Assembly (NCBI RefSeq): GCF_004087915.1
Contig: NZ_CP035108.1
Span: 62,001 to 126,000, forward strand
Length of the DNA: 64,000 nt
Direction of reading: 5' to 3'
Source: Geovibrio thiophilus
GTDB lineage: Bacteria; Chrysiogenota; Deferribacteres; Deferribacterales; Geovibrionaceae
The notes under the pieces are model-generated. The model saw nothing but the letters and a program-made list of their open reading frames with translations. It did not search any database and was not told the origin of the DNA. Positions 5,416-61,703 of this stretch are shown here, piece by piece. The first letter of the stretch is position 1. Each line of letters opens with the position of its first letter. The position numbers were made by a program, and so were the translations under genes.

Positions 5416-5462
5416 GCGGAGCCGTCCCCTGATGTAACCGAGAGGTGAGGTCGTCCTCACAT
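5416..5462 (-). promoter_or_regulatory. Guanidine-II (mini-ykkC) riboswitch
   Basis: On the minus strand two short hairpins carry the ACGR loops that define this class: GTGAGG-ACGA-CCTCAC (5445-5460) and GGGG-ACGG-CTCC (5418-5429, one G-U pair). They are separated by about 15 bases and lie 20-65 bases before the gdx start. In the family guanidinium bridges the two loops and frees the ribosome site. The match of aptamer to a guanidinium exporter supports the call. Confidence 0.88.
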
Positions 5463-10539: not shown

Positions 10540-10569
10540 TTTCTCTGCGGAGTTCGCAATGACTCAAAC

Positions 10570-10659
10570 AGTTCCATGAACGGAACTGCGCCGTACGAAG
10601 CGAAGCCGTGTTTACCAAGGCGTGAGCGTGTGCGTAAAAGGAGCAGGATGTACCCTTTT
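10570..10659 (+). repeat. Three-hairpin repeat element, copy 1 (degenerate)
   Basis: Hairpin A pairs AGTTCC (10570-10575) with GGAACT (10582-10587). The core is GCGCCGTACGAAGCGAAG (10588-10605). The B stem is eroded (GCC/GGC left). A GTGAGCGTGTGCG link leads to hairpin C, AAAAGG (10636-10641) and CCTTTT (10654-10659), with a loop containing CAGGATGTA. It lies between pirin and the yceD-fab cluster. Confidence 0.7.
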
Positions 10660-10820
10660 CTGCGGCAAGACGGATTGATCTTGACTTTCCATTTTAATCT
10701 ATATAAGATTTTCCCTCATTTTGACCGCTTGAAGTGCGCCCTGCCGAAGGGTGCTTGGAAACGGCTGAAAAACACGGTCAAAAGCCCTGACACACAGGGT
10801 TTGCGCAAAGGTTTAGGACA

Positions 10821-13657: not shown

Positions 13658-14575
13658 ATGACAAAAACCGCAGTGGTTTTTCCCGGTCAGGGCTCACAGT
13701 TCGCCGGAATGGGGAAAGATTTTTACGACAAATACGCAGAAGTACGCAAAGTTTTTGATAAAGCCGATGAAGTGCTTGGCTACAGCCTCACTTCAATTAT
13801 GTTCAACGGACCCGAAGAGGATCTCAAGCTGACCTCCAACACCCAGCCCGCTCTGCTCACCATGAGTATTGGCATTTGGGAGGCGGTGAAAAATAAAATA
13901 AAGGCTGATTATTTCGCCGGACACTCCTTAGGCGAATACTCAGCCCTCGTTGCCGCTGGCGGCATAAGCTTTGAGGACGCCGTTCTTGCGGTGCATAACA
14001 GAGGGAAATTCATGCAGGAAGCCGTGCCCGTCGGAACAGGAGCAATGGCAGCCGTCATGGGTGCTGATGACGCAATCATAGCAGATGTCTGCAAGGCGTG
14101 CAGCAAACCCGGCTCCGTTGTGGAACCCGCGAACTTCAACTGTCCCGGGCAGACTGTCGTCGCCGGAAACGCCGAAGCGGTAAACCTCTTCTGTGAAAAA
14201 ATCAAGGAAGCCGGCGCAAAAAGAGCGATCCTCCTCCCCGTGAGCGCTCCATTCCATTGCAGCCTGATGAAACCCGCTGCGGAAAAAATGGCAGCTTACC
14301 TCAAAAACATAAAAATAAACGATCTCCAAGCGCCCGTTTTCAACAATGTTAACGCAGAGATTGAAACGGACGCCGAAACAGTGTACAACTCGCTGGTTAA
14401 ACAGGTGGCAAGTCCCGTTCTCTGGACAAAATCAGTTGAAAACATGGCGGCATCAGGCGTAAACACCATAATAGAAGTCGGCGCAGGCAAAGTCCTCACC
14501 GGACTTGTGAAGAAGATCAATAAAGAAATCGAAGTCAGAAACATCGGAACCCTCGGTGACGAAGACGGAATATAG
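13658..14575 (+). CDS. fabD: Malonyl-CoA:ACP transacylase
   Basis: Loads malonate onto ACP. 305 aa from the ATG at 13658, the usual length; the longer in-frame reading from 13574 would overlap fabH and is rejected. GQGSQ near the N-terminus and the nucleophile motif GHSLGEYSAL are present. The last 21 bp around its stop codon are repeated 127 bp downstream, on the far side of a three-hairpin element. Confidence 0.96.
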   Translation: MTKTAVVFPGQGSQFAGMGKDFYDKYAEVRKVFDKADEVLGYSLTSIMFNGPEEDLKLTSNTQPALLTMSIGIWEAVKNKIKADYFAGHSLGEYSALVAAGGISFEDAVLAVHNRGKFMQEAVPVGTGAMAAVMGADDAIIADVCKACSKPGSVVEPANFNCPGQTVVAGNAEAVNLFCEKIKEAGAKRAILLPVSAPFHCSLMKPAAEKMAAYLKNIKINDLQAPVFNNVNAEIETDAETVYNSLVKQVASPVLWTKSVENMAASGVNTIIEVGAGKVLTGLVKKINKEIEVRNIGTLGDEDGI

Positions 14576-14706
14576 ACCACACAACCCCAAGGAAGGGGTT
14601 GCGCCGTGCGAAGCGAAGGATTGCTTTGCAATCCGCGAGCGGTTAAGGAAACGGACAGGATGTGCCGTTTCCGAATATAGTCAATACGAAGACGGAATAT
14701 AGACCA
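14559..14706 (+). repeat. 21-bp direct repeat of the fabD 3' end flanking a repeat element
   Basis: The 21 bases at 14559-14579 (last fabD codons, stop codon and four more bases) recur exactly at 14686-14706. The three-hairpin element lies between the two copies. The downstream copy has no reading frame. It looks like a target-site or slippage duplication created with the element. Confidence 0.85.
14583..14672 (+). repeat. Three-hairpin repeat element, copy 2 (archetype)
   Basis: Hairpin A: AACCCC/GGGGTT (14583-14600). Core: GCGCCGTGCGAAGCGAAG (14601-14618). Hairpin B: GATTGC/GCAATC with a TTT loop (14619-14633). Link CGCGAGCGG. Hairpin C: GGAAACGG/CCGTTTCC with loop ACAGGATGTG (14647-14672). 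All three stems are perfect. The gap 14576-14946 holds this element, a hairpin pair and a fragment. Confidence 0.88.
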
Positions 14707-14740
14707 GATAACCCGTTTACACTTTGCGGAGCAGGTAAAA

Positions 14741-14875
14741 GTTTTTGAAAGGGTCGGGGAAAAGCTTTTTTCAAAAAGTTTTCCCAGAAAAAACTAAACA
14801 AAGAACAGACTATAAACTTTTGTACTAGGGTATTGTTATGAGAAACCCTTTTTTAACAAAAAAAAAGTGTTTCTC
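14741..14875. repeat. Paired-hairpin repeat (E plus D type), terminator-like
   Basis: GGGAAAAGCTTTTT and AAAAAGTTTTCCC form an AT-rich hairpin (about 14757-14785) behind GTTTTTGAAAGGGTCG. A second hairpin follows: GAGAAAC (14840-14846) with GTTTCTC (14869-14875) around T and A runs, then CAAACTCTTCCCAAAAAAC. The same pair recurs at 31223-31334 and 55642-55748. Either strand could terminate transcription between fabD and fabG, where the operon otherwise continues. Confidence 0.65.
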
Positions 14876-14902
14876 AAACTCTTCCCAAAAAACTGTATCT
14901 TA

Positions 14903-31222: not shown

Positions 31223-31334
31223 ATGAGAGAACCCTTTTTCCACAGGAAAAAAGGGTTCTCTCATACTCACTCCCAAAAACCTGAAATTCGGGTTTTGAGG
31301 GGGAACGGGGGAACTTTTGCCTAAAAGTTTCCCC
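31223..31334. repeat. Paired-hairpin repeat (D plus E type), terminator-like
   Basis: ATGAGAGAACCC with a T run pairs with an A run and GGGTTCTCTCAT (31223-31264). It is followed by CTCCCAAAAAC, GTTTTGAGGGGGAACG and the second hairpin GGGGAACTTTT/AAAAGTTTCCCC (about 31307-31334). Family copies occur at 14741 and 55642. It sits between yraN and gmhA and may block read-through. Confidence 0.65.
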
Positions 31335-31348
31335 GAAAACAAATCTAT

Positions 31349-31826
31349 GCACCGAATGCGTTTATTATGTGCGTTATTTCAGCTGTCTTAACAACAAAAA
31401 TCCGCACATCCTGTCGGATTTTTGTACACGCTCGCGCCGAATTCTCATTCGGCTTCGCTTCGCACGGCGGGTTTCCGATCCTCGGAACCGGAGTCAAGCA
31501 CCGAATGCGTTTATTATGTGCGTTATTTCAGTTGTCTTAACAACAAAAATCCGCACATCCTGTCGGATTTTTGTACACGCTCGCGCCGAATTCTCATTCG
31601 GCTTCGCTTCGCACGGCGGGTTTCCGATCCTCGGAACCGGAGTCAAGCACCGAATGCGTTTATTATGTGCGTTATTTCAGTTGTCTTAACAACAAAAATC
31701 CGCACATCCTGTCGGATTTTTGTACACGCTCGCGCCGAATTCTCATTCGGCTTCGCTTCGCACGGCGGGTTTCCGATCCTCGGAACCGGAGTCAAGCACC
31801 GAATGCGTTTATTATGTGCGTTATTT
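31349..31826 (-). repeat. Three 149-bp tandem units: three-hairpin element plus duplicated yraN 3' end
   Basis: Exact period of 149 bp (units at 31349, 31498, 31647), with a partial fourth at 31796 that is the true yraN end. On the minus strand each unit has hairpin A (31470-31488, slightly imperfect), the core GCCGTGCGAAGCGAAG, hairpin B GCCGAAT/ATTCGGC (31436-31453), and hairpin C AAAAATCCG/CGGATTTTT with loop ACAGGATGTG (31396-31423). A 31-bp copy of the yraN 3' coding end follows each. Units are nearly identical, so the expansion is recent. The gap 31189-31791 has no gene. Confidence 0.9.
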
Positions 31827-52891: not shown

Positions 52892-53049
52892 AAAAACACC
52901 GACCTGTATGAAAAATCTTTTTTACTTTTTCTAAAACAACCCGCCCTCCGAAATGAGCAGGGAAAAGTCACAAATTATATATAGCACATGTCCGTTTTTC
53001 AAGCAGGAAAAAACAGGACAGTCAGATACTCTTGCGTCTCAACACAAAC

Positions 53050-53139
53050 GCTCCACGGATGGAGTTCCGCCGTGCGAAGCGAAGGCTTGCTCCGCAAGCC
53101 GCGAGCGCGTATCCTGAATTTCCATGGAAGAAAATTCAG
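53050..53139 (+). repeat. Three-hairpin repeat element, copy near lipoprotein (left)
   Basis: Hairpin A CTCC/GGAG with loop ACGGAT (53051-53064), core CCGCCGTGCGAAGCGAAG, hairpin B GGCTTGC/GCAAGCC (53084-53100), link GCGAGCGCGTAT, hairpin C CTGAATTT/AAATTCAG with loop CCATGGAAGA (53114-53139). Gap 52892-53328 holds this, a REP pair and a second copy. Confidence 0.85.
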
Positions 53140-53154
53140 AATTATACAAGCAGA

Positions 53155-53224
53155 GACTGTCGCGTCGCTTAGGCTCCTCGCAGTGACACTGTTGACTGTC
53201 ATTGCGAACGAAGTGAAGCAATCT
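53155..53224. repeat. REP-like palindromes (two half units)
   Basis: ACTGTCGCGTCGC and CTCCTCGCAGTGACA form one palindrome, and GTCATTGCGAACGAAGTGAAGCAATCTC forms a second. The second is close to repeats found in many unrelated bacterial genomes. They separate two three-hairpin elements. Confidence 0.65.
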
Positions 53225-53227
53225 CAT

Positions 53228-53319
53228 AACTCCACGGAGGGAGTTCCGCCGTGCGGAGCGAAGGCAGGTTTATCCTGCCGCGAGCGTGTATCCTGAATTT
53301 CCATGGAGGGAAATTCAGG
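53228..53319 (+). repeat. Three-hairpin repeat element, copy near lipoprotein (right)
   Basis: Hairpin A AACTCC/GGAGTT with loop ACGGAG (53228-53245), core CCGCCGTGCGGAGCGAAG, hairpin B GGCAGG/CCTGCC (53263-53279), link GCGAGCGTGTAT, hairpin C CCTGAATTT/AAATTCAGG with loop CCATGGAGGG (53292-53319). It lies ten bases beyond the convergent lipoprotein stop, C side first. Confidence 0.87.
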
Positions 53320-53328
53320 ATTATTAAA

Positions 53329-55641: not shown

Positions 55642-55748
55642 GGGGAAAGCTTTTTATAAAAAGTTTCCCCATAAAGTTACAATACTCTTACTCTATTGAT
55701 AAAAAACTCATGAGGAACCCTTTTTTAATGAAAAAAAACGGTTCCTCA
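55642..55748. repeat. Paired-hairpin repeat (E plus D type)
   Basis: GGGGAAA with T run and A run with TTTCCCC (55642-55670), then TGAGGAACC ... CGGTTCCTCA (55710-55748), again followed by CAAACTCTTCCCAAAAAAC. It lies between argH and dnaJ, in the gap 55586-55934. Confidence 0.65.
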
Positions 55749-55780
55749 AACTCTTCCCAAAAAACCAAACTTTTACCCGA

Positions 55781-55963
55781 GCATCTTCATCCGTGGAGAT
55801 GTTTTATCCGAAAAAATCCTTTATTTTATCAACTTAATACCGGCGAACCTGCGTCCTGCGGTTCGCCTGAACCGCTCGCGCCTTGCGGGGCAAGTCTTCG
55901 CTCCGCACGGCGCATCTTCATCCGTGAAGATGTTTTATCCGAAAAAATCCTTTATTTTATCAA
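55781..55963 (-). repeat. Three-hairpin element flanked by a 52-bp duplication of the dnaJ 3' end
   Basis: 55912-55963 (last nine dnaJ codons, stop and hairpin A) recurs at 55781-55832 with one change. Read on the minus strand: dnaJ end, hairpin A CATCTTC/GAAGATG with loop ACGGAT (55913-55932), core GCCGTGCGGAGCGAAG, hairpin B CTTGC/GCAAG, link GCGCGAGCG, hairpin C GGCGAACC/GGTTCGCC with loop GCAGGACGCA (55842-55867), then the duplicate. The duplicate end has no gene. Confidence 0.88.
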
Positions 55964-59149: not shown

Positions 59150-59512
59150 ATTTATTGGTTCAAAAAAGACGCGTCCTGCGCTTTTTTTCACTCGCAGCCT
59201 GCGGAGTAAAACTCCTTGCTGCTCTCGTTACGTTTGCGCTGCTCGCATTCGCTGTGCTGCGCACTCCACGCACCCATCCATGGGTGTGCTCTCGTTATAT
59301 TGCACGCATCTGTCTTATTTTGGTTCAAAAAAGACGCGTCCTGCGCTTTTTTTCACTCGCAGCCTGCGGAGTAAAACTCCTTGCCGCTCTCGTTACGTTT
59401 GCGCTGCTCGCATTCGCTGTGCTGCGCACTCCACGCACCCATCCATGGGTGTGCTCTCGTTATATTGCACGCATCTGTCTTATTTTGGTTCAAAAAAGAC
59501 GCGTCCTGCGCT
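59150..59512 (-). repeat. 165-bp tandem repeat (about 2.2 copies) of a variant three-hairpin element
   Basis: Period 165 bp (59158, 59323, 59488). On the minus strand each unit has an A-type hairpin CACCC/GGGTG with loop ATGGAT, a longer GC-rich core with GCGAATGCGAGCAGCG, a B-type hairpin GGAGTTTTACTCC, and an AAAAAAG...CTTTTTT hairpin with loop CGCAGGACGCGT. The first two units differ by a few bases only. It splits grpE from dnaK. Confidence 0.85.
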
Positions 59513-61492: not shown

Positions 61493-61684
61493 CTGAAAAC
61501 AAAAACGCTCCCAAGGATGGGAGCGCACCGTGCGTAGTGAAGCCGCATTTCATGCGGCGCGAACGTGTATACGCCCCTGAAAACAAAAACGCTCCCAAGG
61601 ATGGGAGCCCGCCGTGCGTAGTGAAGCCGCATTTCATGCGGCGCGAACGTGTATGCCAAATTCCCATGGATGGAGAATTTGGCA
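61493..61684 (+). repeat. Tandem pair (84-bp period) of three-hairpin elements between lpxC and hrcA
   Basis: Unit 1 has A GCTCCC/GGGAGC with loop AAGGAT (61507-61524), variant core CCGTGCGTAGTGAAG, and B GCCGCAT/ATGCGGC (61542-61558). Unit 2 repeats these from 61577 and ends with hairpin C TGCCAAATTC/GAATTTGGCA, loop CCATGGATGGA (61655-61685 region). The gap 61351-61740 has no gene. Confidence 0.85.
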
Positions 61685-61703
61685 TTGTTAAGTCGAGATT
61701 CCC

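Follow-up and report, generated by a model that had tools for sequence, protein, structure and literature searches.

Long duplications of gene ends around a family of three-hairpin repeat elements in Geovibrio thiophilus

The 3' end of dnaJ occurs twice in the window analysed here (one stretch of 64,000 nucleotides of Geovibrio thiophilus DNA), on either side of a small structured element. How did this arrangement arise, and how general is it?

The dnaJ locus

A repeat search of the window returned a direct repeat of 52 nt (55781-55832 and 55912-55963) at 98% identity and a spacing of 131, which leaves 79 bp between the two copies. The copies differ at a single position, and a match of this length is not a product of chance. 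The ORF at this locus encodes DnaJ on the minus strand (Pfam DnaJ, DnaJ_C and CXXCXGXG). Two sister genomes, G001 and G002, were compared with the own genome (G000). The dnaJ end of G002 is TTCGGGTAAAAATTTGG; the gene end is present once there and the element is missing (...GGATTTTTTCGGGTAAAAATTTGG...), and the same holds for G001 (...GGACTTCTTCGCGTAGATGTTGCAGTTTGG...). Since both relatives carry a single dnaJ end without an element, the element and the duplication are derived at dnaJ.

Set against the empty site of G002, the repeat resolved into two parts. The sequence-only reading had the last nine dnaJ codons, the stop and hairpin A recurring beyond the element; the 52-bp repeat is there, but the dnaJ end contributes 25 bp to it (TTGATAAAATAAAGGATTTTTTCGG) and the remaining 27 bp are hairpin A of the element. 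The old dnaJ stop context is kept directly past the distal copy. The base differences from G002 (GGA TAA vs GGG TAA) suggest that the present TAA of dnaJ was supplied by the left end of the element. The parts of the locus are listed in Table 1, together with five other members of the family in the window.

Table 1. Parts of the dnaJ locus and further family members in the window
Feature	Position	Strand	Evidence
dnaJ end duplicate, gene-attached, copy 1, 25 bp TTGATAAAATAAAGGATTTTTTCGG, read as target-site duplicate	55939..55963	-	Direct repeat; present once in each sister genome (G002, G001)
dnaJ stop codon TAA, present form (GGA TAA)	55935..55937	-	Comparison with G002 (GGG TAA)
Left end of element with hairpin A CATCTTCACGGATGAAGATG; stem variable, loop of AYGGAY type	55912..55938	-	Alignment and covariation of 58 copies
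Near-invariant core GCCGTGCGGAGCGAAG	55896..55911	-	307 matches in own genome with at most one mismatch, none for reversed pattern
Hairpin B, covarying stem	55881..55895	-	Alignment and covariation
Hairpin C CAGGCGAACCGCAGGACGCAGGTTCGCCGG, variable stem; junction CGCGAGCGGTT before hairpin C	55840..55869	-	Folding
Element tail TATTAAG, element right end	55833..55839	-	Right-junction position across clean duplications
dnaJ end duplicate, distal, copy 2, 25 bp	55808..55832	-	Direct repeat
Second hairpin A, remnant of truncated second unit	55781..55807	-	Direct repeat and G002 comparison; no core after second hairpin A
Native downstream sequence TCGGGTAAAAG with old dnaJ stop context	55770..55780	-	Matches G002 empty site
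Element between fabD-like gene end and its copy	14559..14714	+	Repeat and family searches; 29-nt duplicate 14559-14587 / 14686-14714, element 14577-14678
Three-unit array behind yraN (UPF0102), 31-nt gene-end duplicate	31391..31792	-	Repeat, family and Pfam searches
Two-unit array, no flank duplication found	53043..53324	+	Family search of window
Two-unit array, no flank duplication found	61506..61687	+	Family search of window
Single element, no flank duplication found	10564..10666	+	Family search of window

Two of these members had been put forward as further cases of the dnaJ arrangement, and their duplicates and Pfam identities agree with this. The product of the 333-aa ORF that ends at 14575 has an acyl-transferase domain (FabD-like). 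The 112-aa ORF with its end at 31792 encodes a UPF0102 protein (YraN), and there the duplication surrounds the whole three-unit array.

A family of covarying hairpins

Alignment of 58 first units defined the element as a unit of ~100 nt, consisting of hairpin A, the core, hairpin B, a GCGAGCG junction and hairpin C. The stems are nearly free in sequence and strongly covarying; the junctions are near-invariant. In stems A and B, 95.4% of the cells were paired, as against at most 49% in slid controls, and there were 183 double-changed cells vs 49 in shuffles. Hairpin C folded with a mean z of -3.7. At no more than one mismatch, the core GCCGTGCGNAGCGAAG occurs 307 times in the own genome (2,997,552 bp) and 114 and 142 times in two other genomes of the genus, with 0-1 matches to the reversed-pattern controls across the three. 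A covariance model reached diverged relatives in other Deferribacterales genera. Such relatives in genomes of the same order keep the A-B-C layout and have apparent flank or tandem copies.

Tandem arrays were found at 64 of the 93 own-genome loci tested, the other 29 being single elements; array periods ranged from 84 to 234 bp in the first catalogue. The genome stretches sampled amount to about a third of the own genome.

A known RNA family was ruled out as the identity of the element: Rfam gave no match at the gathering threshold, and three loci searched permissively, with E values up to 10 allowed, gave none either. The TwoAYGGAY RNA motif has hairpins with AYGGAY terminal loops; the element shares this type of loop but does not match the Rfam covariance model. 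A phage or plasmid origin was likewise rejected, there being no exact match in viral contigs and none in plasmids.

Two further repeats accompany the family. Many arrays (G000:C1:1397, 393413 and 2414239 among them) contain or adjoin a second repeat, about GAGAGATTGCTTCACCCTTTCAGGGTTCGCAATGACG, which is an unrelated interspersed family. Some insertions (G000:C1:1951961 and 2535695) carry an extra 5' hairpin module (GGCACA..TGTGCC TGCGGAGTGYGTAC) that belongs to a longer related element present in both G000 and G002.

Flank duplications, empty sites and gene ends

To see how general the duplication is, we aligned the flanks of 140 loci from four genomes. A flank duplication was present at 41 loci and in none of 140 shuffled controls. 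The 24 clean duplications are 24-56 bp long, and their right copy begins 77-94 nt after the core start, at the end of the element. The distal copy is often followed directly by native sequence, in many cases with no element remnant. Seven of the 24 duplicates start with GA (p = 0.0007), and the common tail ...AAGWCAGA also ends in GA. The left boundary varied from 0 to 52 nt from the A loop, and the left end of the element is not sharply defined. Outside the genus, a relative in G007 is surrounded by a 26-bp duplicate.

The sequence-only reading took three duplicated gene ends to suggest a shared mechanism, and named copies without the duplication, or away from stop codons, as what would speak against it if they were in the majority. 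In part this is what we found: a left-flank duplication was absent at 57 of the 93 own-genome loci (21 singles and 36 arrays), and some of the duplicates are gene starts. The pattern is therefore not universal. The loci that lack a left-flank duplication may be old, or may have been made in another way. Flank DNA is included in the repeat unit of 28 of the 64 own-genome arrays, many of them with no extra right-hand copy; by their layout, arrays with flank DNA in the unit and no right-hand partial copy look like plain tandem duplications. Transduction of donor sequence was rejected: the 5' extensions had matches at their own locus with its tandem copies, at its orthologue and in a related hairpin module at another site, and the only other matches were very short.

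Empty sites were not confined to dnaJ. At locus #58 (G000:C1:1951961), a 43-bp sequence present once in G002 is found twice around the element in G000. Conversely, G002 carries two elements and gene-end copies at C1:124086, where the duplicate ends at the stop codon and G000 is naive. One gene end (G000:C1 ~2.85 Mb, G002:C1:23874) has a different insertion in each species, each with a long duplicate; these are apparently two independent events. In the G002C1/G002C2 orthologues of G000:C1:215787, 123527 and 1836047, we found remnants in which hairpin A is kept as its left half and joined to hairpin C, of which the right half is left; it looks as if similar loops had recombined and deleted the core. 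Loci #13, #54 and #9 were discarded as naive sites in G002 because they look like such A-loop x C-loop deletion remnants instead. Templating of the stems by the target was also rejected; hairpin arms match the flank at G002 C1:65895, #13 and #5, but not in the clean cases #25, #64, #65 and #6.

Where do the clean duplications lie? They were labelled as gene 3' ends in 18 cases, gene starts in five and neither in one. The last is yraN, which is truly a 3' end, the gap being too short for the rule of the ORF caller. A same-strand stop codon lay within -16..+4 of the duplicate end in at least 17 of the 24 clean cases, which come from four genomes and are not all independent (two are one orthologous insertion), whereas 5.1% was expected from simulated uniform insertion with random orientation and rejection of gene-breaking events, a null that rests on a crude ORF caller and one genome. 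The gap to this crude null is large, and gene 3' ends are a preferred target of insertion, as the idea of a shared insertion process aimed at them had it. The further claim that hairpin A always adjoins the stop codon holds only for a subset: in the first 75 arrays, the distance between hairpin A and the upstream stop on the same strand clusters at -4..+7 and reaches about 300 bp. At six loci (dnaJ, #6, #18, #25, #65 and #72) the duplicate ends inside the stop codon or the sense codon before it. There the left end of the element restores the reading length by means of a different synonym or stop, as in GTG TAA to GTC TGA. A replication-strand bias was ruled out; 65% of the arrays are co-oriented with replication vs 63% of the genes, and orientation tracks genes rather than replication.

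How the duplications may arise

We hold, with moderate confidence, that the family is a REP-like, non-autonomous structured element that makes long target-site duplications of variable length and is then subject to tandem amplification and loop-to-loop deletion. Insertion would take place mostly directly after or inside the stop codon, in the orientation of the target gene, and would depend on a trans-acting enzyme. The target would be opened as if by nicks in opposite strands 24-56 bp apart. The gap would reach from the final codons of the gene to its stop codon, and gap filling would yield gene end, element and gene end copy. The right end would be fairly fixed, sometimes with GA microhomology, and the left end variable. 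Because the left end often brings a new stop codon, the gene would be unharmed. The resulting repeats may recombine or slip to give tandem arrays, and recombination between the similar loops of A and C may delete the core. At dnaJ, the 25-bp duplicate would have come first and a second unit later, hairpin A alone being left of the latter. What the data show directly is the structure, the copy number, the empty sites, the long duplicates and the bias towards stop codons; the staggered opening, the succession of steps and the enzyme belong to the interpretation.

Which enzyme might act? With positive controls, no match in the own genome was obtained for the Y1 transposase (Y1_Tnp, PF01797; REP-associated tyrosine, RAYT) or for DDE_Tnp_1 (PF01609, IS4/IS1634), and TnpB zinc-ribbon and Transposase_20 (IS110) domains were not found there either. 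On these own-genome searches, RAYT, IS4/IS1634, TnpB and IS110 enzymes were rejected as mobilisers. The own genome has three near-identical IS3-like (rve) copies; those examined do not carry the core, and IS3-like rve was rejected as well. It is possible, though doubtful, that the gene-less three-hairpin element stands for a new class of bacterial mobile element, recognised by its fold rather than its sequence and inserted in sense at stop codons. The new machinery involved would open 24-56 bp of the target and might be linked to transcription termination.

Local tandem duplication is an unlikely alternative source of the arrangement. In that case the element would already have lain behind the gene, replication slippage or unequal exchange at the hairpins would have copied element and gene end together, and later deletions would have left the present arrangement. 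At individual loci such a two-step history, with loss of the last element, may have taken place. Arrays are the rule in the own genome (64/93 loci), and 28 of these include flank DNA in their unit; A-loop/C-loop deletion remnants are present, and dnaJ too has a truncated second unit at the end of its locus. Against this, relatives lack both the element and the duplicate, and the distal copy followed directly by native sequence in many clean cases means that the last unit must have been deleted precisely every time. Slippage at the hairpins, which the sequence-only reading had proposed, may account for the tandem arrays and the A-loop x C-loop deletion remnants but not for insertion at naive sites.

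Microhomology-mediated template switching, in which a replication strand stalled at the gene end copies an element at another site and returns 24-56 nt upstream, so that the gene end is copied a second time, requires no dedicated enzyme and would fit the failure to find a common transposase domain in the own genome, as well as the variable duplicate length, the variable left end and the GA microhomology at the right junction. We consider it quite improbable. A single element with a similar right end recurs at many loci, whereas this process would copy other sequences too, and the massive structural covariation suggests that a folded form is recognised.

Target-primed reverse transcription of element RNA at a nicked target, as for SINE-like retroposons and as also suggested from the sequence alone, would match a 3' end that is fairly fixed and a 5' end that is not, duplicates of variable length, the preference for gene ends on the sense strand and the strong RNA-like covariation. 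It is very improbable, given that no RVT_1 domain was found in G000, which has the most copies, or in element-rich G002, and that the presence of an RT elsewhere in the bacterial family (G001, G004, G007 and G008) does not track element abundance.

We return to the REP-like insertion favoured above. REP / BIME repeats (GTAG and CGTC superfamilies) number hundreds and lie between genes, mostly downstream of coding regions; many lie no more than 20 bp from the stop codon, which they sometimes supply, and CGTC REPs have no known dedicated transposase (PMC3733652). The element resembles them in its small covarying hairpins, its location downstream of genes and its supply of stop codons, all typical of REPs. 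Not typical are the three linked hairpins with near-invariant junctions (~100 nt, vs a single hairpin of 20-40 bp), the head-to-tail arrays and the 24-56 bp flank duplications; moreover, the consensus has no GTAG or CGTC tag, and no Y1/RAYT domain was found in the own genome.

Direct repeats of variable length (8-514 bp), of unexplained mechanism, accompany IS1634 and IS1549 of the IS1634 family (PMC2266710). The long variable target duplications of our 24 clean cases are similar, but those elements are autonomous, 1.5-2 kb long and encode a DDE transposase, whereas ours is about 100 nt and gene-less, in a genome where no DDE_Tnp_1 domain was found. Like MITEs, the element is short, non-coding, of high copy number and accompanied by target duplications. 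MITE duplications are usually 2-10 bp, far shorter than those found here, and no terminal inverted repeats join the ends of the element; the inverted repeats near the dnaJ element are two hairpins outside it. MIRU / VNTR minisatellites form tandem intergenic arrays near gene ends, but the unit here combines a folded core common to all loci with locus-specific gene-end DNA. Recombination of the attC type, which acts on a single-hairpin site, would fit the element poorly.

If the favoured reading is right, over 100 loci and the empty sites in sister genomes provide a well-replicated natural data set on how target duplications of great and variable length form, which has no explanation so far. 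The family would also exemplify insertion directed to stop codons. Intergenic repeats could then build up in a compact genome and leave its genes intact, since the gene end is preserved by the duplicate and the element brings its own stop codon.

Three other features of the window were recorded. Under model R1 (E 1.8e-5), a 165-bp tandem repeat directly upstream of dnaK (59155-59484, minus strand) proved to contain two relatives of the element, both diverged. A terminator-like hairpin, GAGGAACCCTTTTTT...AAAAAACGGTTCCTC, is common to three gene ends (14838-14893, 31225-31280 and 55710-55765). Finally, positions 5417-5460 (minus strand) matched the Guanidine-II (mini-ykkC) riboswitch at 33.8 bits, vs an Rfam gathering score of 32.
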